NCBI GenBank assembly: GCA_030154185.1
Contig: JASKKK010000001.1
Location: 1-64,000, forward strand
DNA: 64,000 bases
Direction of reading: 5' to 3'
Source: Desulfuromonadales bacterium
GTDB taxonomy: Bacteria > Desulfobacterota > Desulfuromonadia > Desulfuromonadales > Syntrophotaleaceae
The position numbers and the translations under genes were made by a program. The notes below the pieces were generated by a model that saw nothing but the letters and a program-made list of their open reading frames with translations, was not told the DNA's origin and made no database searches. Positions 29,070 to 56,000 of the stretch are shown here, piece after piece (the stretch's first letter is position 1; each line of letters opens with the position of its first letter).

Positions 29070-29764
29070 GGCGCGGTAAGCGGCAGGAATACGACCGGTT
29101 CAGGGTAGAGAATTTGAAAGATACGCTGCTTTTCATATGCAACCGGCTGGCGGAGCATTTCGGGCCACTGCACTGGTGGCCGGCGGATAGCCCGTTCGAA
29201 GTGGTCATCGGAGCTTTCCTGACCCAGAATACGGCATGGCGCAACGTGGAACTGGCGATTGCCGCTCTCAAACGTGCCGTTCCCCTGACACCGCAGGCGA
29301 TATGCGGTCTCGAAAGGCAGCGGCTGGAAGAATTGATCCGCCCGGCGGGGTTTTTCAGGCAGAAGGCGCAGCGGCTGCAACTCTTTTCGGGTGACCTGCT
29401 GGAACATTACCAGGGGGATCTCGATGCCATGCTGGCCGGGCCGTTACCGCAGGTGCGCCGGTACCTTCTCGAGTTCAAGGGGGTCGGACCGGAAACCGCC
29501 GACTCCATTCTGCTGTATGCCGCCCATCGCCCGTCTTTTGTCGTCGATGCCTACACCCGGCGCCTGCTGCAACGCTACGGTATCTTGCAAGGCGGCGAAA
29601 GTTACGAGCAGATCCGTACTCTGTTTATGGAAAACCTGCCTCTTCAGACAGACCTGTTCAATGAATATCACGCCCTGATCGTCGAACAGTGCAAAACCTT
29701 TTGTCGCAAACGACCGCTGTGCGATTCCTGCCCCTTACAACCGCATTGCGCGGTCATCCTCTGA
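29066..29764 (+). CDS. Endonuclease III-related HhH-GPD DNA glycosylase
   Basis: PFEVVIGAFLTQNTAWRNVELAIAAL; LLEFKGVGPETADSILLYAAHRPSFVVDAYTRRLLQRYG; C-terminal Cys cluster CKTFCRKRPLCDSCPLQPHC. Confidence 0.93.
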   Translation: MRRGKRQEYDRFRVENLKDTLLFICNRLAEHFGPLHWWPADSPFEVVIGAFLTQNTAWRNVELAIAALKRAVPLTPQAICGLERQRLEELIRPAGFFRQKAQRLQLFSGDLLEHYQGDLDAMLAGPLPQVRRYLLEFKGVGPETADSILLYAAHRPSFVVDAYTRRLLQRYGILQGGESYEQIRTLFMENLPLQTDLFNEYHALIVEQCKTFCRKRPLCDSCPLQPHCAVIL

Positions 29765-30841
29765 CTCTGTCTCCGATATCACGGCCGTTGCCGGTGGCCG
29801 CATAGCCTGCCTTGTCAGCCAGACCAGGACCGCCACGCCTGCCAGCAGTACGGTTGCGAAAAGCAACAGGGCGCCGTTTTGCCAGAGGACCGGCATGTTC
29901 GCCGGGAGCAGTTGTCCCGCCAGGCTCGCATGGCGCACCACTTCCCGAAGTCCGCTCATGACGAAGACCTGCATGACGAGCAGGACAGTGCATAATCCCG
30001 GCAGCCGCTGTGCGGCGCATGCCAGCATGGCCAGGGCAATGCCGCTGGCAGCGACAAGCAGCAATCCCCCGGTAAGGCTGCCGCCGAGGATGAACCATCG
30101 GACCGGTTGCGGCAGTTGCCAAAGAAACAGTATGCCTATCCCGAACTGCAGCAGGGTCATGCGGCTGAAAAGTCGCAATCCGATCCTTTCTGCATAGGCT
30201 CCGAGGGGCGGGTTGCGCCTTCCCAGCCGTCTTCCCGTCAGAGCGGTAAAAAGCCCTCCGACAGCCATGGCCGCCACCATGAAATGCAGATACCGGGGCC
30301 AAACGGTTGGATCTTTCAGGTTGAGAAGAGAGCCTCCGTCTTCGCTGAAATAGGCTCGCCAGTGCGTCAGGTCAAGCATGGTCGTCTGCTGGTTGGTGAA
30401 GAAAAACGGCACGGTCAGCAACAGGGCCAGAATCAAGCAAAGGGCTGGAAGGGGGCGGGACCGAAATACGGCCAGGTCGGCATCCAGCATATACAGCCCG
30501 GCGTAGGCCGTCATCAGCAGGGGAATGATGGCCAGCCAGTATCGTCCCATGAGGATGGCCGCCGGATAGAAAAACTGCCCGTACAGGGTCTGGGAAAAGA
30601 GCAGGCTCGCCACGCCCAGGTTGATGGTCAGTGCCATCAATATCGGAAGGGAAGCGGTCAATCGGGGTGCCAGGGCGCGATCCAGCGGTCTGTTGCGCCG
30701 CCGGATCAGCAAGACCACGGCCGTGGTGCCGAGCAGTCCGTTCATGGCCAGCAGATGGAGAGGGAAAACCAGCAGCAGCAGGCCCTGCAGCAGGGGCCAC
30801 CCCGCCGGCAGGGCTTCGGCCGTCGGGACGAGTACATTCAT
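29735..30841 (-). CDS. Polytopic membrane protein, putative second subunit of a bd-like terminal oxidase (CydA'-like?)
   Basis: About nine hydrophobic segments; overlaps (ATGA) the CydA-like cytochrome gene upstream; VWPRYLHFMVAAMAVGGLF and GWPLLQGLLLLVFPLHLLAMNGLLGTT segments. Confidence 0.55.
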   Translation of the reverse strand: MNVLVPTAEALPAGWPLLQGLLLLVFPLHLLAMNGLLGTTAVVLLIRRRNRPLDRALAPRLTASLPILMALTINLGVASLLFSQTLYGQFFYPAAILMGRYWLAIIPLLMTAYAGLYMLDADLAVFRSRPLPALCLILALLLTVPFFFTNQQTTMLDLTHWRAYFSEDGGSLLNLKDPTVWPRYLHFMVAAMAVGGLFTALTGRRLGRRNPPLGAYAERIGLRLFSRMTLLQFGIGILFLWQLPQPVRWFILGGSLTGGLLLVAASGIALAMLACAAQRLPGLCTVLLVMQVFVMSGLREVVRHASLAGQLLPANMPVLWQNGALLLFATVLLAGVAVLVWLTRQAMRPPATAVISETESEDDRAMRL

Positions 30842-32097
30842 GGTTTGCTCCCGGATCGTTGTTGGTTCGCCAGCCAGACCGCCAGGTCCCGGCGTTCGTC
30901 CGGGCTGCCGATAAAAGGCGGCATGAAGGGCCGGATGGCATGCAGCTGCGAAATATAGGCCTCAAGCGCTGGTGCGTCCATGCCCTGCGTGCGCTGCAAA
31001 ATATCGTTGTTGATCCCTCCGAGGGTGTGACAGGCATAACATTGGAATTTAAATAATTCCCGACCGGGTTCGGTGCTTTTGCTCCAGGGGGTGGATGACA
31101 AAAACGGCTCTTTCAGCGGGCGGTCTGCGCGCTGCCCGTTGGAATAAATGCTGCCTTGCAGCACGTAGGGACGCCTTGCCGCTTCTCTTGTCCATTCGAA
31201 ACTGCCCATGAGCAGCAGTCCTGCAGCGAGGCCGATCATGGCTGCAGGTTTGCCGATGCGCCCCGGACGCCACAGGGCCAGCAATGCGCCGACTGACAGA
31301 ATCGCGGCAGCCGGCCGGGCTACCGCCAGGCTGCGGACTATGGTAGGAGAGGCTCCTTCCACCAGGGTGCGTACCGGCGCCGGCAGGTTTTTCAGATACC
31401 AGAAAACTGCCGGCAAAGCGGCGCCCAGGGCAACAAGGCATCCAGCGCCGGCGATGCGTATCAGGCGCCGGGCCAGAGGGCGGTCTTTCGAAAATGCCGC
31501 GACCGCCGTCACGAAAAGCCCCGACAGGAGTATCGCCAGGCAGGTGCGCAGAAGCAGCGAGGGGAAAAAAGTCGGATTGAAAAAAGCGCTGAACACTTCC
31601 CCCTGTCGTGCAACGGCACCGGGAGTGAGCATGAAGGTGATGATGCCGTTGATGGCGAACAGGCTAAGCCAGCTTGCTGCGCAGTAGATGCCGCCGATGG
31701 CCAGGTGCCGGCGGGACGACAGGCGGTCGAAGGTATGCAGGTAGACGATGATGGACACGATTTCGACCAGAAAGAGGACCCACTCGGCGGCCCAGACAAA
31801 GACGAAACGATGGATCAGGGCGGAGGTGCCTGACGGTTGTACCAGGGAAATGGCAAACCAGATCCCGACGCCGGTCAGTGCTCCGCAAACCAGGGTGGCG
31901 AAAAGGAAGAAGCGGGCGAAGTTGCGGGTGAAGCGATAAAGCGGACGGTCGCGACGGTGCCTGGCACAGCCTTCCAGCAGCACCAGCCAGAACCCGCCGC
32001 CGACGGCGAAATGCGAGATGAAGACGTGGATGATCGCAATGGTGGCGATGATGGTTCCGCCGCCGATAGAAGGTATGTACCAGACCGGATAGTTCAT
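30838..32097 (-). CDS. Divergent cytochrome bd subunit I (CydA)-like membrane protein with C-terminal c-type heme domain
   Basis: HVFISHFAVGGGFWLVLLE and TGVGIWFAISLVQPS..FVWAAEWVLFLVEIVS resemble CydA helices; C-terminal FQCYACHTLGG single CXXCH. Start ATG 32097. Confidence 0.7.
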   Translation of the reverse strand: MNYPVWYIPSIGGGTIIATIAIIHVFISHFAVGGGFWLVLLEGCARHRRDRPLYRFTRNFARFFLFATLVCGALTGVGIWFAISLVQPSGTSALIHRFVFVWAAEWVLFLVEIVSIIVYLHTFDRLSSRRHLAIGGIYCAASWLSLFAINGIITFMLTPGAVARQGEVFSAFFNPTFFPSLLLRTCLAILLSGLFVTAVAAFSKDRPLARRLIRIAGAGCLVALGAALPAVFWYLKNLPAPVRTLVEGASPTIVRSLAVARPAAAILSVGALLALWRPGRIGKPAAMIGLAAGLLLMGSFEWTREAARRPYVLQGSIYSNGQRADRPLKEPFLSSTPWSKSTEPGRELFKFQCYACHTLGGINNDILQRTQGMDAPALEAYISQLHAIRPFMPPFIGSPDERRDLAVWLANQQRSGSKP

Positions 32098-32383
32098 GGA
32101 TATCCATCCTGTTGGGGGGAGATGAATCTGGTCCCGGCGCGTCGTGGACATTTTGCCACGTTCCGGATAACCGGGATTTTTGACGGGGCAACATATTGTC
32201 GACGTTTAAATAACCTTACCGGTAAGCGGGATTGTATATGATAACATCAAAATATATCGTCTGCACGCCGTTGTCCGAGGCAGGGGGGCAGTGTTCTTCC
32301 ATGGGAGAAAATACCTTCGATCCAGTGTGTCGGCCTGCTTTATTGCCGCCATATTGCATGTTTGAAACCGCAAGGGGCGTCTC

Positions 32384-45422: not shown

Positions 45423-46463
45423 TCAGTCCGCCGACGCGGAGACATGCATACTGCTGTGCAGCATGAGCAATGCCACGGCGATCAACAGCAGGTTATAGAA
45501 CAGCAGGGCGCCCGCATGCAGCGGCACGGTCGGCATGACCAGGCACAGCCGCTCGATGAACAGACCGCCCAGAACGGTGCAGGATACTGCGGCAATCATA
45601 TGGCGGCTTTGCTTGACGGGGGCACCCAGCAACAGGATGAACGGAGCCAGGAAAAGGGCCAGCGGGAACAACCAGGCAAGCTCCCGTCCCGGGCTGTTGG
45701 AAATGATGTCGAGGATGTAACCGACCTCCTCAGGAAGATTGCCATACCACAACAGCAGAAACTGGGCGAAGAACAGACCTGTCCACAATACGCTGAAGCC
45801 GAACATCAACAGACCTATGTCGCGCAGGTGGTTGCCGACGGCAAGGCTGGTATCGCGGGTCTTGCCCTGGAAATAAAGCACCATCAATAAACCGCTGGCC
45901 GCCGTTGCGGCATACAGTGCTTCCGTAAAGAAATAGGCGCCAAGCAGGGTGCTGATCCATGGCCAGACCAGGGACATGACCCAGTCGAAGGCCGCCAGGG
46001 TCTGGCTGGTTACGAACAACAGCAGGTAGATTACGGCAGCCGGGCCGGTGGTCTGTCCGTCCAGGGAGCGTTTTGCCAGGTGGCGCCCGGCGAGAAAAAC
46101 CGCCAGTAGAATTGCGAGGTTGCGCAGCATGAAAAAAGGTCTGTTGAGCCACAGGGTGGGGTGATCCGTCCACGGATAGAGGTCGAGTTGCGGCCATAGA
46201 AACAGAAACAGCAGCGGCAGCAGCAATAACAGGGGATAGAGGGACAGCAGTTCGCGGCGCAGCGAGGCGATCCAGCGGGCGTTCACCAGTTCGCAGGCGG
46301 CCGCCAGGGCGATGCAGCCCTGGGCGATGCATGACCAGAAAAGGAGGGTCAATAAAAGCGATCCCGGTTTGCCCGACAGACCGAATTCGGTCAGGCCGAT
46401 AAGCAGAGCCGAGATGACCAGCAGTGCGTAAATGCCGGATTTGTTGAGCACCATGGAGGTCAT
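45423..46463 (-). CDS. actF: Alternative complex III subunit ActF-like (quinol:cytochrome c oxidoreductase membrane subunit)
   Basis: Polytopic; WLNRPFFMLRNLAILLAVFLAGRHL, TLAAFDWVMSLVWPWISTLLGAYFF; last gene of the act-like cluster. Confidence 0.82.
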   Translation of the reverse strand: MTSMVLNKSGIYALLVISALLIGLTEFGLSGKPGSLLLTLLFWSCIAQGCIALAAACELVNARWIASLRRELLSLYPLLLLLPLLFLFLWPQLDLYPWTDHPTLWLNRPFFMLRNLAILLAVFLAGRHLAKRSLDGQTTGPAAVIYLLLFVTSQTLAAFDWVMSLVWPWISTLLGAYFFTEALYAATAASGLLMVLYFQGKTRDTSLAVGNHLRDIGLLMFGFSVLWTGLFFAQFLLLWYGNLPEEVGYILDIISNSPGRELAWLFPLALFLAPFILLLGAPVKQSRHMIAAVSCTVLGGLFIERLCLVMPTVPLHAGALLFYNLLLIAVALLMLHSSMHVSASAD

Positions 46464-46897
46464 GACGCCTCCTCGTCGTTGATAGTGAGTACGAAGCGCG
46501 GATCGAAAGGGTCGTCGCTGACCAACGGACCGGGGTCGGGCAGGCGGGAAAGCCATAAAAAACCGGCGAAGCAGGACAGGGACCCTATCAGGATGGTCAG
46601 CAGGTAGCCTATGAGCAGAAACGGTGGAACCGAGACGATCGGCTTGCCGCCGGTCACTATGGGCCAGTCGACAGAGGTAAGCATGGCCAGCAGAAATCCG
46701 CCGCCGAAGCCGGCCAGCCCGCCGCCAAGGGCGAAATAACGCAGGCGGCTTGGACGGCCGATGAGCAACTCTTCCGCCTCATGCAGGTGGAAGGGCAGAC
46801 GGGCTCGCAGCCGACGGCGCGGAATGCCGGCATTCAGCTGGGCGCGCAGTTCTTCCAGAAAGGCGTCCGGCGTATCGAAATAGAGCTGGCGTGGCAT
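46460..46897 (-). CDS. actD: Alternative complex III subunit ActD-like (DUF3341)
   Basis: FHLHEAEELLIGRPSRLRYFALGGGLAGFGGGFLLAMLTSVDWPIVTGGKPIVSVPPFLLIGYLLTILIGSL. Confidence 0.88.
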   Translation of the reverse strand: MPRQLYFDTPDAFLEELRAQLNAGIPRRRLRARLPFHLHEAEELLIGRPSRLRYFALGGGLAGFGGGFLLAMLTSVDWPIVTGGKPIVSVPPFLLIGYLLTILIGSLSCFAGFLWLSRLPDPGPLVSDDPFDPRFVLTINDEEAS

Positions 46898-46898
46898 G

Positions 46899-48191
46899 TC
46901 AACGCTCCTTCAATTCGGTGATGGACAGTACCGGCAAGGTTTTGACGAAAACCAGAAATGCCGCGAAAAACAGTCCGAAGCTGCCCAGAGTGATGCCGCA
47001 TTCGACCGGGGACGGCAGATAATTGCCCCAGTTATAGGGATCGAAATCGCGGGCCAGAGAGCAGACCACGATGACGAAGCGTTCCAGCCACATGCCGACG
47101 TTGACCAAAAGGCTCAGAACGAACAGGAATGCCAGGCTGCGCCGCAGACGGCGTATGAACAACAGTAGCGGCAAGACGGCATTACACATGATCATGATCC
47201 AGAACAACAGGCTGTAATGCCCCAGAGCGCGGAAGCGGAACTGCTCCATTTCGAACAGGTTTTCGCCGTAAAACGCCATGCCGTGCTCAATCACGTAGGA
47301 AAACCCGACAATCAGGGACGTCAGCAACAGGATCTTGGCGATGGCTTCGATATGATCGATGGGGATGTGTTCTTGCAGGTTCAGCACGCGACGCATGGGT
47401 ATGACCAGGGTGAGGACCATGGCCGTGCCCGAAAAGATCGCGCCGGCGACGAAATAAGGGGCGAAAATGGTGGTATGCCATCCCGGGATGATGCTGACGG
47501 CGAAATCCCAGGATACGATGGAATGCACCGAAGCTACCAGCGGTGTGGCGAATGCGGCCAGAAACATGTAAAGGCGTCCGTAGTGGCGCCATTGCCGTAG
47601 GTTTCCGGTCCACCCCAGAGAAAGGATGCGATACAACTTCCCCGCCCGGCCGCTGCGGTGGCGGGCGGCGATGGCCAGATCGGGCATCAGGCCCACGTAG
47701 AAAAAGACCAGGCTGACCAGGAAGTAGGTGGAGACGGCGAACACATCCCAGATCAGCGGAGATCGGAAGTTGACCCACAGCTGGCGCTGGTTGGGGTACG
47801 GGAAGAGATAGTAAAAACGCCATACCCGTCCCAGATGAATGAGGGGGAACAGGCCTGCCACCATGAGGGCGAAGATGGTCATGGCTTCGGCGGCGCGGTT
47901 GAAGCTGGTGCGGAAGCGGGCGCGGAAGATGAACAGCACCGCCGAAATCAGAGTGCCGCTGTGGGCAATACCGACCCAGAAAACGAAGTCGGTGATATAC
48001 ACTCCCCAGCCGACGGGGTGGGTGATGCCGGCCACTCCCATGCCGTGCATGATCTGGTAAGCCCAGAGCGCCAGACCTCCGGCAAACAGCAGGCCGGCAA
48101 GACCGAGGCCGGTCAGCCAGGCAGGGCCGGGGCGGCGCATGGCTGTCAGTACATCGGTTTCAACCTGTGGGGCGGAAATGTCGTTGTTCAT
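46899..48191 (-). CDS. actC: Alternative complex III subunit ActC-like (NrfD family)
   Basis: GWGVYITDFVFWVGIAHSGTLISAVLFIFRARFRTSFNRAAEAMTIFALMVAGLFPLIHLGR..W; SIVSWDFAVSIIPGWHTTIFAPYFVAGAIFSG. Confidence 0.92.
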   Translation of the reverse strand: MNNDISAPQVETDVLTAMRRPGPAWLTGLGLAGLLFAGGLALWAYQIMHGMGVAGITHPVGWGVYITDFVFWVGIAHSGTLISAVLFIFRARFRTSFNRAAEAMTIFALMVAGLFPLIHLGRVWRFYYLFPYPNQRQLWVNFRSPLIWDVFAVSTYFLVSLVFFYVGLMPDLAIAARHRSGRAGKLYRILSLGWTGNLRQWRHYGRLYMFLAAFATPLVASVHSIVSWDFAVSIIPGWHTTIFAPYFVAGAIFSGTAMVLTLVIPMRRVLNLQEHIPIDHIEAIAKILLLTSLIVGFSYVIEHGMAFYGENLFEMEQFRFRALGHYSLLFWIMIMCNAVLPLLLFIRRLRRSLAFLFVLSLLVNVGMWLERFVIVVCSLARDFDPYNWGNYLPSPVECGITLGSFGLFFAAFLVFVKTLPVLSITELKER

Positions 48192-48226: not shown

Positions 48227-51010
<2,784 letters not shown>

Positions 51011-51022
51011 GGCCGATCCGTT

Positions 51023-51568
51023 CTATTTGTGACAGGTGGCGCAGTCGCGCGGCGCTCCCCGGGAGCGATGGCAGGAGATGCACCATCCCATTTTGAGGGA
51101 ACGGACGCGTTGCACTTCAAGCATCCGCTCTACCGCTCCGTGACAGGCGGCACAGGGTTGTTCCGCCTGGATGTGTCGTTGATGAGTGAAATGAATAAAG
51201 TCGGGCAGGTTGTGCAGTCTTTGCCAACGCACCGGTTCGCCGCGACGTTCATAACCCAGCAGCTTTTCGATTTCCGGCCTGTCGGTGGCGATGGCCCGAT
51301 GGCAGGACAGACACACGGACAGAGCCGGTACCCCGGCGCTCGCTTCCTGTTTCACTCCGCTATGGCAGAAGTCGCAGGCGAGATTCAGTTTGTCGGCATG
51401 AGTGGTATGGGGAAAAGCTATGGGCTGTGTTGTCGGGGGTGCGAAAAAACCACGCACAAGGCTCGCCGACAAGGTTGCCAGCACAAGCAGGGCGAAATAG
51501 GAGAATACAGCCAGGCAGAAAAGTTTTCTTAGCCGTGTTCCGGGTCGTTTCGGCGCCTTGTCACTCAT
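51023..51568 (-). CDS. actA: Alternative complex III subunit ActA-like pentaheme cytochrome c
   Basis: Five CXXCH motifs (CDFCH, CLSCH, CAACH, CISCH, CATCH) with N-terminal TM. Confidence 0.88.
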   Translation of the reverse strand: MSDKAPKRPGTRLRKLFCLAVFSYFALLVLATLSASLVRGFFAPPTTQPIAFPHTTHADKLNLACDFCHSGVKQEASAGVPALSVCLSCHRAIATDRPEIEKLLGYERRGEPVRWQRLHNLPDFIHFTHQRHIQAEQPCAACHGAVERMLEVQRVRSLKMGWCISCHRSRGAPRDCATCHK

Positions 51569-51575
51569 CTGGGCC

Positions 51576-52844
51576 TCATGGTTCAGCGTTTTGGAAGAGG
51601 TAGTCGGCGATGGCTTCTGCCTGATCGGCAGTCAAGCCGAGATTGGGCATGGCCGGATAGTTGGGGTTCCGTTTTACAGGTTGCATGAGAAAGGCCGTCA
51701 ATGTCTCGGGATCGGACCGGTAACCGGGTACTACCGAATTCAATGGCGGACCAACCACTCGCTGATCGAAGCGGTGACAGACGCTGCATTTTTGCTCGAA
51801 AAGTTCCTTGCCGTTGAGAACCTTCGCCGCTTTTGATGGGCTGACTTCCGGCGGAATGGATTCCCCTTCGGTCGCAAGTGCTGGCGTAGGCGTTTCGACG
51901 GCCAGTCCGGCAAGTGCAACAGGCGTAAGGGTACGCTCTCTGGCTACATGCCCCATGAATGCCCAGCACCAGAACAGCAGTATGATCATGGCAAAAAAAG
52001 TTTTCGGGGCATGTATCTTTCCATACAGGGTCATGCCCAGTAAGAAGGTGCAGAAAGCGGCGAGAAGAATGGACGCGACTGCCAATGCGGTCAAAAGACG
52101 CCCGCCGGCAAGAGATGGAATCAGGGCCATTTCGAGACCGAGTGCCAAGGGCCAGAGCAGGAGGGCCCCGAGTGAAAGGCCTGCTCCTATGCGTCGCGCG
52201 ACACAGTCTGCCGCAGGGGGCGGAATCGACGTTGGGTATGGCGAAGTGGTTGAAAAAAGCAGCGCATTGCCTGTGATGGCGCAAGTCAGTAAAAGAAATT
52301 CTGCAAAGCGTGTGAAGCCATGCCAGGATAAAAACAGGTATGGCAGGTGGGACAGGTGTGGCCAGAACTCGGGAGTCAGTAGAATGCTTTCGGTGCAGGC
52401 CAAAGCCAGACAACAGGCAGCAACGATGGTGACACCCGCCCCGCCTATAGCCAGTGCCGTCCTGTCGAGCGGGCGTTGATCGACAAGCCTGTATCGGCAG
52501 CATACCATCAAGCCGAGACCGGCGGTAAGCAGCAGGATGAGCACGATCCAGGCGGCATTGGAAAAAAGTTGCGGCCGGTAAATGATCTTGAACAACAACA
52601 GGCTTGCGATAATCGTCAATACGACGAGGGTGTCATGCTCTACGGATGGATTTGCGCGTCTCAGGAGACCGTCAATCCAGGGCGGCGTTTCCTTTTCGCC
52701 GGTCCTGTGCTTCAGGCTCGCACTGGCGAGCGATACAGTCGTACCGCCGAGCATGAGAGCCAACAGCGGGCATACCAGCGCAATCAGGATTATCAGTAGC
52801 CATTTCAATTGTTCAAGATGGGTTTGTATTTCCGGCAACATCAT
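51576..52844 (-). CDS. Polytopic membrane protein with C-terminal monoheme cytochrome c domain (ActE-like heme domain?)
   Basis: About nine hydrophobic segments, then GKELFEQKCSVCHRFDQRVVGPPLNSVVPGYRSDPETLTAFLMQPVKRNPNYPAMPNLGLTADQAEAIADYLF; first gene of the act-like cluster. Confidence 0.8.
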   Translation of the reverse strand: MMLPEIQTHLEQLKWLLIILIALVCPLLALMLGGTTVSLASASLKHRTGEKETPPWIDGLLRRANPSVEHDTLVVLTIIASLLLFKIIYRPQLFSNAAWIVLILLLTAGLGLMVCCRYRLVDQRPLDRTALAIGGAGVTIVAACCLALACTESILLTPEFWPHLSHLPYLFLSWHGFTRFAEFLLLTCAITGNALLFSTTSPYPTSIPPPAADCVARRIGAGLSLGALLLWPLALGLEMALIPSLAGGRLLTALAVASILLAAFCTFLLGMTLYGKIHAPKTFFAMIILLFWCWAFMGHVARERTLTPVALAGLAVETPTPALATEGESIPPEVSPSKAAKVLNGKELFEQKCSVCHRFDQRVVGPPLNSVVPGYRSDPETLTAFLMQPVKRNPNYPAMPNLGLTADQAEAIADYLFQNAEP

Positions 52845-53052: not shown

Positions 53053-53751
53053 TCAGGGTGTCTGCCTGCGGACGATACCGAAAACGGAAATGCGAATTTT
53101 CGGCGTTCGGGGACTGCTTGTGGTGAGGTGGATATAGCCGTTCTGGTGCGTTTTGTCAGATGGTACGTGCAGGCGGATCTTGATTTTAGTCGAAGCTCCG
53201 GGGGGCAATCGTGTGTCGGACAAGGTTGCCGACAAAGCCTCAGGGACGGTTTTGAGGTTTGACAGAAATACAGGTTGTTCGCTGTTGTTGGTCAGAGTGA
53301 TAAAGGCTTCGCGCATCTCTCCCGGCCGCATATCGGTAAGGCGCAGGCGCGCCGGAGTGACGTCGATTTCGGGTTGAACGATGCCGTTGATCTGCATGCG
53401 CGCCTTCGGCGTACCGGGATCGTTGCTGTAAAGGTAGATCCATTTGACGACCGGTCCTCGCATGCCCCTGGAATTGAAGATGATTTTAACCTCTCCCGAT
53501 TTTCCGGGAGGGATTTCCTTCTGGGACAGCAAGGTCCCCGTGCAGCCACAAGTGGAACGCACCCGCTCGATGAGGAGTGTTTCGTCTCCGCGGTTGGTGA
53601 AGGAGAAAACGTGTTCAAGTTTGCTGCCCTCGGCGATCGTACCAAAATGATAGGCCGGGCTGGGTATGACGAGTTGTGGCGCTGCCAGAACCCGACCGCA
53701 AAACAGCGTGAGGAGAATAAGCGGAAAGAAGAGAGAGAAAAGCTTTTTCAT
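53053..53751 (-). CDS. DUF1573 domain-containing exported protein
   Basis: YHFGTIAEGSKLEHVFSFTNRGDETLLIERVRSTCGCTGTLLSQKEIPPGKSGEVKIIFNSRG. Confidence 0.88.
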   Translation of the reverse strand: MKKLFSLFFPLILLTLFCGRVLAAPQLVIPSPAYHFGTIAEGSKLEHVFSFTNRGDETLLIERVRSTCGCTGTLLSQKEIPPGKSGEVKIIFNSRGMRGPVVKWIYLYSNDPGTPKARMQINGIVQPEIDVTPARLRLTDMRPGEMREAFITLTNNSEQPVFLSNLKTVPEALSATLSDTRLPPGASTKIKIRLHVPSDKTHQNGYIHLTTSSPRTPKIRISVFGIVRRQTP

Positions 53752-53938: not shown

Positions 53939-54228
53939 CAATGATGATTATTATCCGTATAGAACGGGCAGCGCGGTTTTCTGGCTTTATAACATAAATC
54001 TAAGGATCCGAGCCACCTTTTCGCGCAGTATCATGGATTCAAGGGGGGCTGGGTCATTGCCGCAGGCGTGTCGGGGAGCAGCGACATGCGTGGAGTAAGC
54101 GGCCATATTTACGCATGTTTCGCCCAAGAAAACGAACCGAGAGTCATTTGCAATAAGATTGACAGTCCCCGTCAGTGTTGTTATAAATTCCGGACTTGAA
54201 AAGGGTTTTATTTTATTGGCGGATTTTC

Positions 54229-54780
54229 ATGTTTGATTTCCTCAGAATTCTCTACACACGTGATCAGATAGCGGATCAGGTTCACAGACTTGGTAAAGAA
54301 ATCGACCGCGATTATGCAGGTCGGGAAATTCTGCTGGTTTGTGTTCTGAAAGGCTCTTTTTTGTTTTTTGCCGATCTGGTTCGCAGCATTTCCCGTCCCA
54401 TGGTCATGGATTTCGTGCGCATGGCGAGTTACGGATGCGACACGATTTCCTCCGGAGTGGTGGAAATGCGTAAGGATCTGGAGTTTTCCGTCACTGACCG
54501 GGATGTCATCATTGTCGAGGATATTGTCGATACCGGCTATACTCTGCAGACCTTGTACCATCGTCTGCTCGATCGGAAGCCGCGCTCGTTGAAGGTCTGC
54601 ACCTTGTTGGACAAACGATCCGACCGTCGGGTTCAGATCGAAGCGGATTACGTCGGCTTATCTCTGGATGAGGGGTTTGTCGTCGGTTATGGACTCGATC
54701 ATCAGGAAAAATATCGGGAACTTCCGGATCTGTATGTGCTTGAAGGTTCTCCATGCGTTGACAAAGAGAGGCCGATATGA
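54229..54780 (+). CDS. hpt: Hypoxanthine phosphoribosyltransferase
   Basis: LLVCVLKGSFLFFADLVRSI; VIIVEDIVDTGYTLQTLYHRL; YGLDHQEKYRELPDLYVL. Confidence 0.96.
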   Translation: MFDFLRILYTRDQIADQVHRLGKEIDRDYAGREILLVCVLKGSFLFFADLVRSISRPMVMDFVRMASYGCDTISSGVVEMRKDLEFSVTDRDVIIVEDIVDTGYTLQTLYHRLLDRKPRSLKVCTLLDKRSDRRVQIEADYVGLSLDEGFVVGYGLDHQEKYRELPDLYVLEGSPCVDKERPI

Positions 54781-56000
54781 TTGTGCAATGCCCCGACTGT
54801 TCCAGTCGGTTTCGCCTGGCTGAAGAGAAGATAAAACCCAGCGGTACCAAGATCCGTTGTTCCAATTGTAAGAAAATATTTACGGTCATGCCGCCGGAGC
54901 AGGAACCGCCCGTTCCAGACCGGGGGGAATTGAACCGGAAGCCTGAGCAGAAACTTTCGAATCAGAACGAGCAATCCTTTTTTGGCGACGATGCCGACGT
55001 CGGATCAGAAACGCCGGAGCCGGGCGGAGTGGCGTTTCATGAGCTCGACCTGGGAGCCGACATGGACGATGCCGGTGAATCGAAGGAGGGCGCTTTTGAT
55101 GGCGGTTTTTCCGACGAGTTCGATTTCAAGGCTTTTGACGATGAGGAAAACCCGGAATCGGATGCCTTTTTCGGCGAATCGTCAGGTGTGTCGGAGGATG
55201 ATTTTTCTTTTGGGGATCATGTTTCCTTTGAGGATGATGACGATTTTCCCTCGGATGGAAACGCGGAAAAGCCTGACATCGATGCTCCCTCCGAATCGTT
55301 CGGTTTCTCCAGTTCCGAATCCATGGAGATGTCTTCGCCGGAGGAGCAGGAATCGTTTGACATGGATACGGCGGAGGGTGGCACCGGTCTTTTCGACGAG
55401 GATATTTCCAAGCAGAACGATCCGGGGGTATTGCCTCCTCCGGTGAAAACGCGCCATGTACGCAAATCGGGGCGCAAGGGAGTGGCTTTTCTGGTTATCC
55501 TGCTGCTGGTGGGGGTTGCTGCAGGCGGTTATTTCGTCTGGCAAAAGGGGCTGCTCAACAAGGATCGAATCTTCACGCTGCTGCACATTAAAACGCCTTC
55601 GGAGTCATCCGTTGGCCAGATTGGTACGTCCGGCCTGCAAGGTTTTTTTCTGCAAAACGGCAAGGTGGGGCGTTTGTTCGTCATTCAGGGGGAGGCGGTC
55701 AATGAGTTCCAGGAGCCACGTTCCGCCATCTCCGTCAAAGGCATGTTGTTTGACGATAAGGGGGCATTGTTGCTGCAACAGACGGTGTTTTGCGGAAACC
55801 CTCTCCGGGTAGCTGATTTGCGAACCATGCCTTTTGAGCGTATTGTCGAAAGAATGGATAACCAGTTTGGCGATTCTCTGAGCAATTTGAACGTACCCCC
55901 GGGAAAATCCATTCCCTTCACCATTGTTTTTCGCAACCTTCCGGACAGTTTGAGTGAGTTTTCCGTCGAGGTGGTCGATTCCAAGCCCGTATCCCATTAG
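54777..56000 (+). CDS. MJ0042-type zinc-ribbon protein with acidic linker, TM and C-terminal DUF3426-like domain
   Basis: MIVQCPDCSSRFRLAEEKIKPSGTKIRCSNCKKIFTV; long Asp/Glu-rich segment; TM VAFLVILLLVGVAAGGYFVW; IQGEAVNEFQEPRSAISVKGMLFDDKGALL. Confidence 0.85.
   Translation: MIVQCPDCSSRFRLAEEKIKPSGTKIRCSNCKKIFTVMPPEQEPPVPDRGELNRKPEQKLSNQNEQSFFGDDADVGSETPEPGGVAFHELDLGADMDDAGESKEGAFDGGFSDEFDFKAFDDEENPESDAFFGESSGVSEDDFSFGDHVSFEDDDDFPSDGNAEKPDIDAPSESFGFSSSESMEMSSPEEQESFDMDTAEGGTGLFDEDISKQNDPGVLPPPVKTRHVRKSGRKGVAFLVILLLVGVAAGGYFVWQKGLLNKDRIFTLLHIKTPSESSVGQIGTSGLQGFFLQNGKVGRLFVIQGEAVNEFQEPRSAISVKGMLFDDKGALLLQQTVFCGNPLRVADLRTMPFERIVERMDNQFGDSLSNLNVPPGKSIPFTIVFRNLPDSLSEFSVEVVDSKPVSH

Follow-up and report, generated by a model that had tools for sequence, protein, structure and literature searches.

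Background

Canonical alternative complex III (ACIII) comprises the subunits ActABCDEF and is represented by the complexes of Rhodothermus marinus (6F0K) and Flavobacterium johnsoniae (6BTM). In Rhodothermus, electrons pass from quinol at ActC through FeS1 of ActB and the five hemes of ActA to ActE, and from there to the CoxII-c subunit of a caa3 oxidase (PMC5928083). Rhodothermus ActE is a lipoprotein that sits atop ActA and gives electrons directly to caa3 (PMC5928083). In Nitrospirales, ACIII gene clusters have an OR-N5 CydAA' directly downstream (PMC12342949).

A different kind of ActE has been described in Pelobacter carbinolicus. The 2012 genome paper assigned this protein ‘eight predicted transmembrane segments’, termed it unique and proposed that it forms a cysteine channel (PMC3543383). 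P. carbinolicus has since been noted as lacking a normal ActE (PMC8552683). Its expression of ActA and PpcA is Fe(III)-dependent (PMC3543383).

An ACIII gene cluster that begins with a fusion gene

We analyzed a 64,000-nucleotide stretch of a Desulfuromonadales genome (the window). The window contains a minus-strand gene cluster in the order EX-ActA-ActB-ActC-ActD-ActF-like, where EX is the name used here for the fusion protein encoded first. The cluster and its upstream neighbor comprise the following features:

53053..53751, minus strand: DUF1573 protein, a conserved neighbor upstream of EX with a putative link to the system only
51576..52844, minus strand: EX, fusion protein of 422 aa (open reading frame, Pfam, AF2, Foldseek and profiles)
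51023..51568, minus strand: ActA, 181 aa, pentaheme cytochrome c with 5 CxxCH motifs (QrcA/c7-type matches; synteny)
48227..51010, minus strand: ActB, 927 aa, molybdopterin-oxidoreductase domain fused to a 4Fe-4S domain (Pfam accessions PF00384 and PF04879)
46899..48191, minus strand: ActC, 430 aa, NrfD-type membrane subunit (PF03916, E 8.9e-29)
46460..46897, minus strand: ActD, 145 aa (PF11821, E 5e-28)
45423..46556, minus strand: ActF-like polytopic subunit, 377 aa (syntenic, 43-76% identical in relatives)

By the sequence features tested for ActA, ActB, ActC and ActD, this cluster is an ACIII that lacks the canonical ActE feature. In its canonical form ActE is a small monoheme cytochrome c with a lipid anchor, and the c domain of EX instead sits on a protein with eight transmembrane (TM) helices. 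The cluster has no CxxCH gene besides EX and ActA, and no separate ActE. A true ActE of another phylum, used as a query, found no match in the window's genome, which is weak evidence. The original prediction of an act-like gene order with no free ActE in the cluster was thus borne out, with coordinates and order right. The cluster's ActA carries five hemes and lacks a sixth-heme domain.

The ActF-like protein has no Pfam match. Its listed start overlaps ActD, and the true start is probably internal. An ActC query matches ActF of two relatives, locally only (E 7e-6 and 4e-4). The DUF1573 gene and, at 54196-56000 on the plus strand, the hpt-like phosphoribosyltransferase and DUF3426 genes form a conserved flank of the EX locus, which is retained even where the act operon is absent (locus L042).

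EX joins a membrane module to a monoheme cytochrome c

EX consists of an 8-TM module (residues ~10-314), a disordered linker (316-339) and a monoheme cytochrome c domain (~340-422) with a CSVCH motif at 353-357. The AF2 model, built on an alignment of 49 homologues, has a pLDDT of 88 and a pTM of 0.85. It places TM helices at residues 10-48, 68-89, 96-122, 128-155, 174-196, 211-241, 249-273 and 280-314, eight in all where nine had been predicted. Pfam recognizes the cytochrome c domain (residues 342-416, E 1.5e-7), and this domain is the sole match of EX in Pfam, NCBIfam and PDB sequence searches. The original reading of this frame as a polytopic protein ending in a CSVCH cytochrome c is therefore correct, and the AF2 model and Pfam support its view that an extra integral-membrane module tethers a monoheme c domain.

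The open frame, the fusion and the synteny are kept in relatives down to ~30% identity, so the fusion is not a chance event. In a genome of the same genus (G004), EX is 66-67% identical over its full length and the gene order is the same. The helix number is even and the loops after TM1, TM3 and TM5 are basic, which predicts a periplasmic location for the C-terminal end of TM8 and for the c domain. The architecture had been thought unreported, but the 8-TM ActE of P. carbinolicus was already in print (PMC3543383; PMC8552683).

EX is found in 11 phyla

A search with an alignment of 14 homologues located EX at 80 loci in named genomes, and further genomes of the class encode it too. The rows to which a phylum could be assigned represent 11 phyla: Thermodesulfobacteriota, Ignavibacteriota, Bacteroidota, Chlorobiota, Myxococcota, Latescibacterota, Acidobacteriota, Calditrichota, Poribacteria, Armatimonadota and Nitrospinota. 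The fused protein is encoded nearly always beside ACIII genes. Because it occurs in 11 phyla, EX is not unique to one species. We found no earlier statement of this wide distribution in the literature searched, the main papers on ACIII composition and the bd family lying outside it.

EX precedes ActA in 33 of 84 rows, follows the act genes in another 33 and is unplaced in 18, several of which lie at contig ends; some unplaced EX genes follow oxidase genes and CtaB. Loci in Latescibacterota, Acidobacteriota and Armatimonadota have the order SCO-CoxI-CoxIII-CoxII(c)-CtaB-EX-ActA-B-C-D-F. Those in Bacteroidota, Ignavibacteriota and Chlorobiota have the act genes followed by ActE-SCO-CoxI-CoxIII-CoxII-CtaB-EX. 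Either way, EX comes after CtaB, and the EX tree shows a single switch between the two orders. EX is thus placed at the boundary of the caa3/aa3 oxidase genes with the ACIII genes. A reading of the Ignavibacteria loci as ActF followed directly by EX was rejected, as the two are kept apart by the oxidase genes and a distinct ActE gene.

The simplest alternative account of these loci is that EX is an ActE with an enlarged membrane anchor, in which the module only anchors and has no special tie to the oxidase. The P. carbinolicus protein was named ActE (PMC3543383). EX lies directly before ActA in EX-first clusters, the window's included, and is the only monoheme subunit there. The module is also the fastest-evolving part of the system (mean identity 25%, compared to 49% for ActB and 68% for ActC). 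Against this account, EX-last loci in Bacteroidota and Ignavibacteriota encode a separate ActE-type protein (306 aa) alongside EX, which matches the ActE chains 6lod_E (E 4e-7) and 6f0k_E (E 8e-4). The single EX sequence matches no ActE chain in the PDB at E<=1, and its c domain is nearest to c551/c552 and a Rhodothermus cytochrome c (3cp5). A 300-residue, 8-TM anchor kept in 11 phyla would also be costly for anchoring alone. We consider this account unlikely, if still the strongest of the competitors.

Because a true ActE coexists with EX in one clade, the view that EX is simply an ActE fused to something else is not supported. The prospect that relatives carry a separate ActE in the cluster, raised with the original prediction, is realized in Bacteroidota and Ignavibacteriota and not in EX-first loci such as that of the window.

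Several loci depart from these patterns. Four Bacteroidota/Ignavibacteriota loci (L062, L068, L072 and L083) encode an ActD of 379-400 aa with its own C-terminal CxxCH, which brings the monoheme c domains of a cluster to three. Melioribacter reportedly has an ActDE fusion, an ActD with a C-terminal CxxCH. One Bacteroidetes EX gene (L102:8983-10257) has no act or oxidase genes within 9 kb; near it, on the opposite strand, are two genes for four-heme proteins resembling NrfH/NrfA. We also identified ActD domains in ~630-aa open frames in class genomes without EX (L180-L204, families f24/f25), which may belong to a further ACIII-like class that has ActD in fused form.

EX co-occurs with ACIII and heme-copper oxidase

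Among 277 genomes of the class, all 23 that encode EX also encode ActD (76/277 overall, p 8e-15) and COX1 (200/277 overall, p 4e-4), by Fisher tests that count related genomes as independent and ignore phylogeny. Two of the 23 EX genes (G012 and G021) are cut by contig ends. Eight genomes of the window's family encode all of EX, ActD and COX1; in six others, none of the three is intact. Consistent with a shared history, EX distances track those of ActA, ActB and ActC (r 0.77-0.83).

In Desulfuromonadales, EX has no adjoining COX genes. The window's genome encodes a caa3-type cluster (SCO-CoxI-CoxIII-CoxII-c-CtaB) on the EX strand, where 18.9 kb separate EX from the upstream CoxI. Five relatives likewise have COX1 upstream on the same strand, at 17-22 kb. 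In the assembly of the window's genome, a frameshift divides CtaB (heme O synthase), next to the caa3 cluster, between two frames (L210:4841-5594; C60 ~68841-69594), while CtaB is one unbroken match in three other genomes (G002, G004 and G007). The split is recent decay or an assembly error. Because of this frameshift, either the oxidase of the window's genome may be inactive or the assembly is wrong.

Three genomes have lost the act operon (G008, G010 and G038). Their EX lacks the c domain and COX1 is absent too. The orphan modules of G008 (L043:3507-4616) and G010 (L044:805-1791) show a dN/dS of ~0.33 between the two species, and 0.20 over the first 100 codons. These values hint at either retained function or recent loss. 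An IS200/IS605-like transposase pair (L043:1187-3117) adjoins the G008 remnant.

The membrane module has a predicted bd-type fold

EX residues 1-330 have no Pfam match, and neither EX nor any of 14 homologues matches PF01654 or PF02322. A Foldseek search of the PDB with the EX model returned CydB and CydA chains at the top (7nkz_B, 7d5i_B, 9fka_B, 9r2g_A, 8b4o_B and 7d5i_A). These bd matches all have a probability of 1.00 and target TM-scores of 0.43-0.59 (0.52-0.59 for the first five); E-values are modest, from 7e-3, and whole-query TM-scores are ~0.46-0.50.

Profile comparison with hhalign gives an independent match. EX residues 1-320 align over 296 columns with a CydA'-like family of ~357-aa proteins (Prob 98.9, E 2.9e-17), and the module also matches a CydA-like family whose members match PF01654 (Prob 92.5, E 4.9e-7). 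Control profiles (ActC, ActF and reversed) score at most 1.3%. The match to canonical CydA, represented by two sequences only, is not significant (Prob 10%). The best 60 of 173 matches in a PDB search with the EX alignment profile are cytochrome c domains, with no bd chains. Homology of the module to NrfD or to ActC/ActF was considered and rejected (hhalign at most 0.4%).

The Foldseek probabilities, the consistent top matches and the independent profile match together assign the modeled module, by fold, to the CydA/CydB/CydA' superfamily. The original prediction had left room for the N-terminal region being an accessory protein already described. This is half the case, in that the region has no Pfam match and belongs, by fold and profile, to the bd superfamily. 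Such a membership is not stated in the literature that we searched, main work on the bd family lying outside it.

Two window genes belong to the families concerned:

29735..30841, minus strand: CydA'-like membrane protein without heme c, a paralogue ~21 kb from EX
30838..32151, minus strand: CydA-like membrane domain plus cytochrome c (PF01654, E 1.1e-11), partner of the CydA'-like gene

The first belongs to the CydA'-like family that contains the closest profile relatives of the EX module. Genes of this family adjoin genes for CydA-like proteins with an added cytochrome c, which match PF01654 (E 7e-13). A BLASTP comparison of EX with the window's CydA'-like protein gives no significant match (E 0.32); the relation is visible by profiles only. 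The gene pair itself (29735-32151, minus strand) is an uncharacterized bd-like pair, probably of OR-N/CydAA' type.

These relatives raise the alternative that EX is a CydA'-type subunit of a bd-like oxygen reductase, paired with a CydA-like protein such as that encoded at 30838-32151, with its c domain feeding O2 reduction. The presence of one such pair in the window and the CydAA' genes downstream of Nitrospirales ACIII clusters (PMC12342949) favor this account. Gene content speaks against it: the CydA-like-c gene already has an adjoining CydA'-like partner, EX loci carry caa3/aa3 genes and not CydA, and 6 of 10 EX genomes tested have no divergent CydA-like match, with two (G020 and G056) lacking any PF01654 match. 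We regard a reductase role as quite improbable.

Heme ligands and cysteines are not conserved

Across 49 sequences, the EX module has no invariant His or Cys. At the TM1 position that seemingly matches CydA His19, 13 of 49 sequences have His, with ligand positions assigned from sequence pattern and not by structure superposition. As no His or Cys is conserved in the module, EX is, judged by its ligands, not an oxygen reductase subunit. By model and profile the module looks like a retired, heme-less relative of bd-type oxygen reductase subunits.

The published cysteine-channel proposal (PMC3543383) could draw on the ten Cys that the window protein, too, has before its c domain, but it is barely credible: no module Cys is conserved among 49 homologues, which have a median of one and in 14 cases none at all, so the basis in conservation is gone and the model was rejected, and EX presence tracks ACIII and COX1.

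A predicted electron-exit cytochrome

We consider it probable that EX is a membrane-tethered electron-exit cytochrome that couples ACIII to heme-copper oxidase. Its N-terminal 8-TM, heme-less bd-fold module would serve as an anchor and docking scaffold, and TM8 would lead through a flexible linker to the periplasmic monoheme c domain. Menaquinol would be oxidized at ActC, and electrons would pass through ActB (FeS1) to the five hemes of ActA. As no sixth-heme domain accompanies the five hemes of the window's ActA, electrons would leave the complex through a further c domain, which EX provides. EX would accept electrons from the last ActA heme and pass them to a caa3-type heme-copper oxidase (CoxII-c) or another periplasmic acceptor. 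We infer from gene linkage that EX docks on both ACIII and the oxidase and transfers electrons between them.

Since the oxidase link is conserved, O2 is likelier than sulfur to be the final acceptor. Acceptors other than O2 are possible, given that P. carbinolicus expresses ActA and PpcA in an Fe(III)-dependent manner (PMC3543383).

More tentatively, EX may define an ACIII class, present in at least 11 phyla, in which a repurposed heme-less bd subunit, as a physical bridge, keeps a mobile cytochrome c between ACIII and heme-copper oxidase. A gene once called unique to one species becomes a subunit across at least 11 phyla, likely of bd-oxidase-fold origin, and the cysteine-channel model is deprived of conservation support. 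EX offers a predicted route, open to testing, by which ACIII could reach heme-copper oxidase. It also bears on why many ACIII clusters miss or can dispense with ActE.

Comparison with known systems

The closest described protein is the 8-TM ActE of P. carbinolicus, which shares with EX the accompanying act genes and the type of fusion. It was described as a unique cysteine channel, whereas EX occurs in 11 phyla, has no conserved Cys and is assigned a bd-type fold.

The window's cluster shares with canonical ACIII the pentaheme ActA, ActB, ActC, ActD and ActF-like genes and a monoheme c exit, and EX loci, like those of canonical ACIII, are often linked to oxygen reductase genes. The ActE of canonical complexes is a small lipoprotein. 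In the window, by contrast, the c domain is carried by an 8-TM protein with a predicted bd fold, and there is no separate ActE.

The CydA'-like partner family of the CydAA' bd-like enzymes (OR-N type, Nitrospirota/Nitrospinota) aligns with the entire EX module. Unlike these enzymes, EX has no conserved heme ligands, has its own C-terminal cytochrome c and is encoded alongside ACIII and heme-copper oxidase, not alongside CydA.

The sixth-heme domain of Flavobacterium ActA and the CoxII-c of caa3 oxidases are c domains to which electron transfer from ACIII to the oxidase is also ascribed. In contrast to EX, these domains are tethered to other proteins and have no bd-fold scaffold. If EX does act as a bridge, it would represent a third design for coupling within a supercomplex, beside those of Rhodothermus (ActE/CoxII-c) and Flavobacterium (ActA sixth heme).
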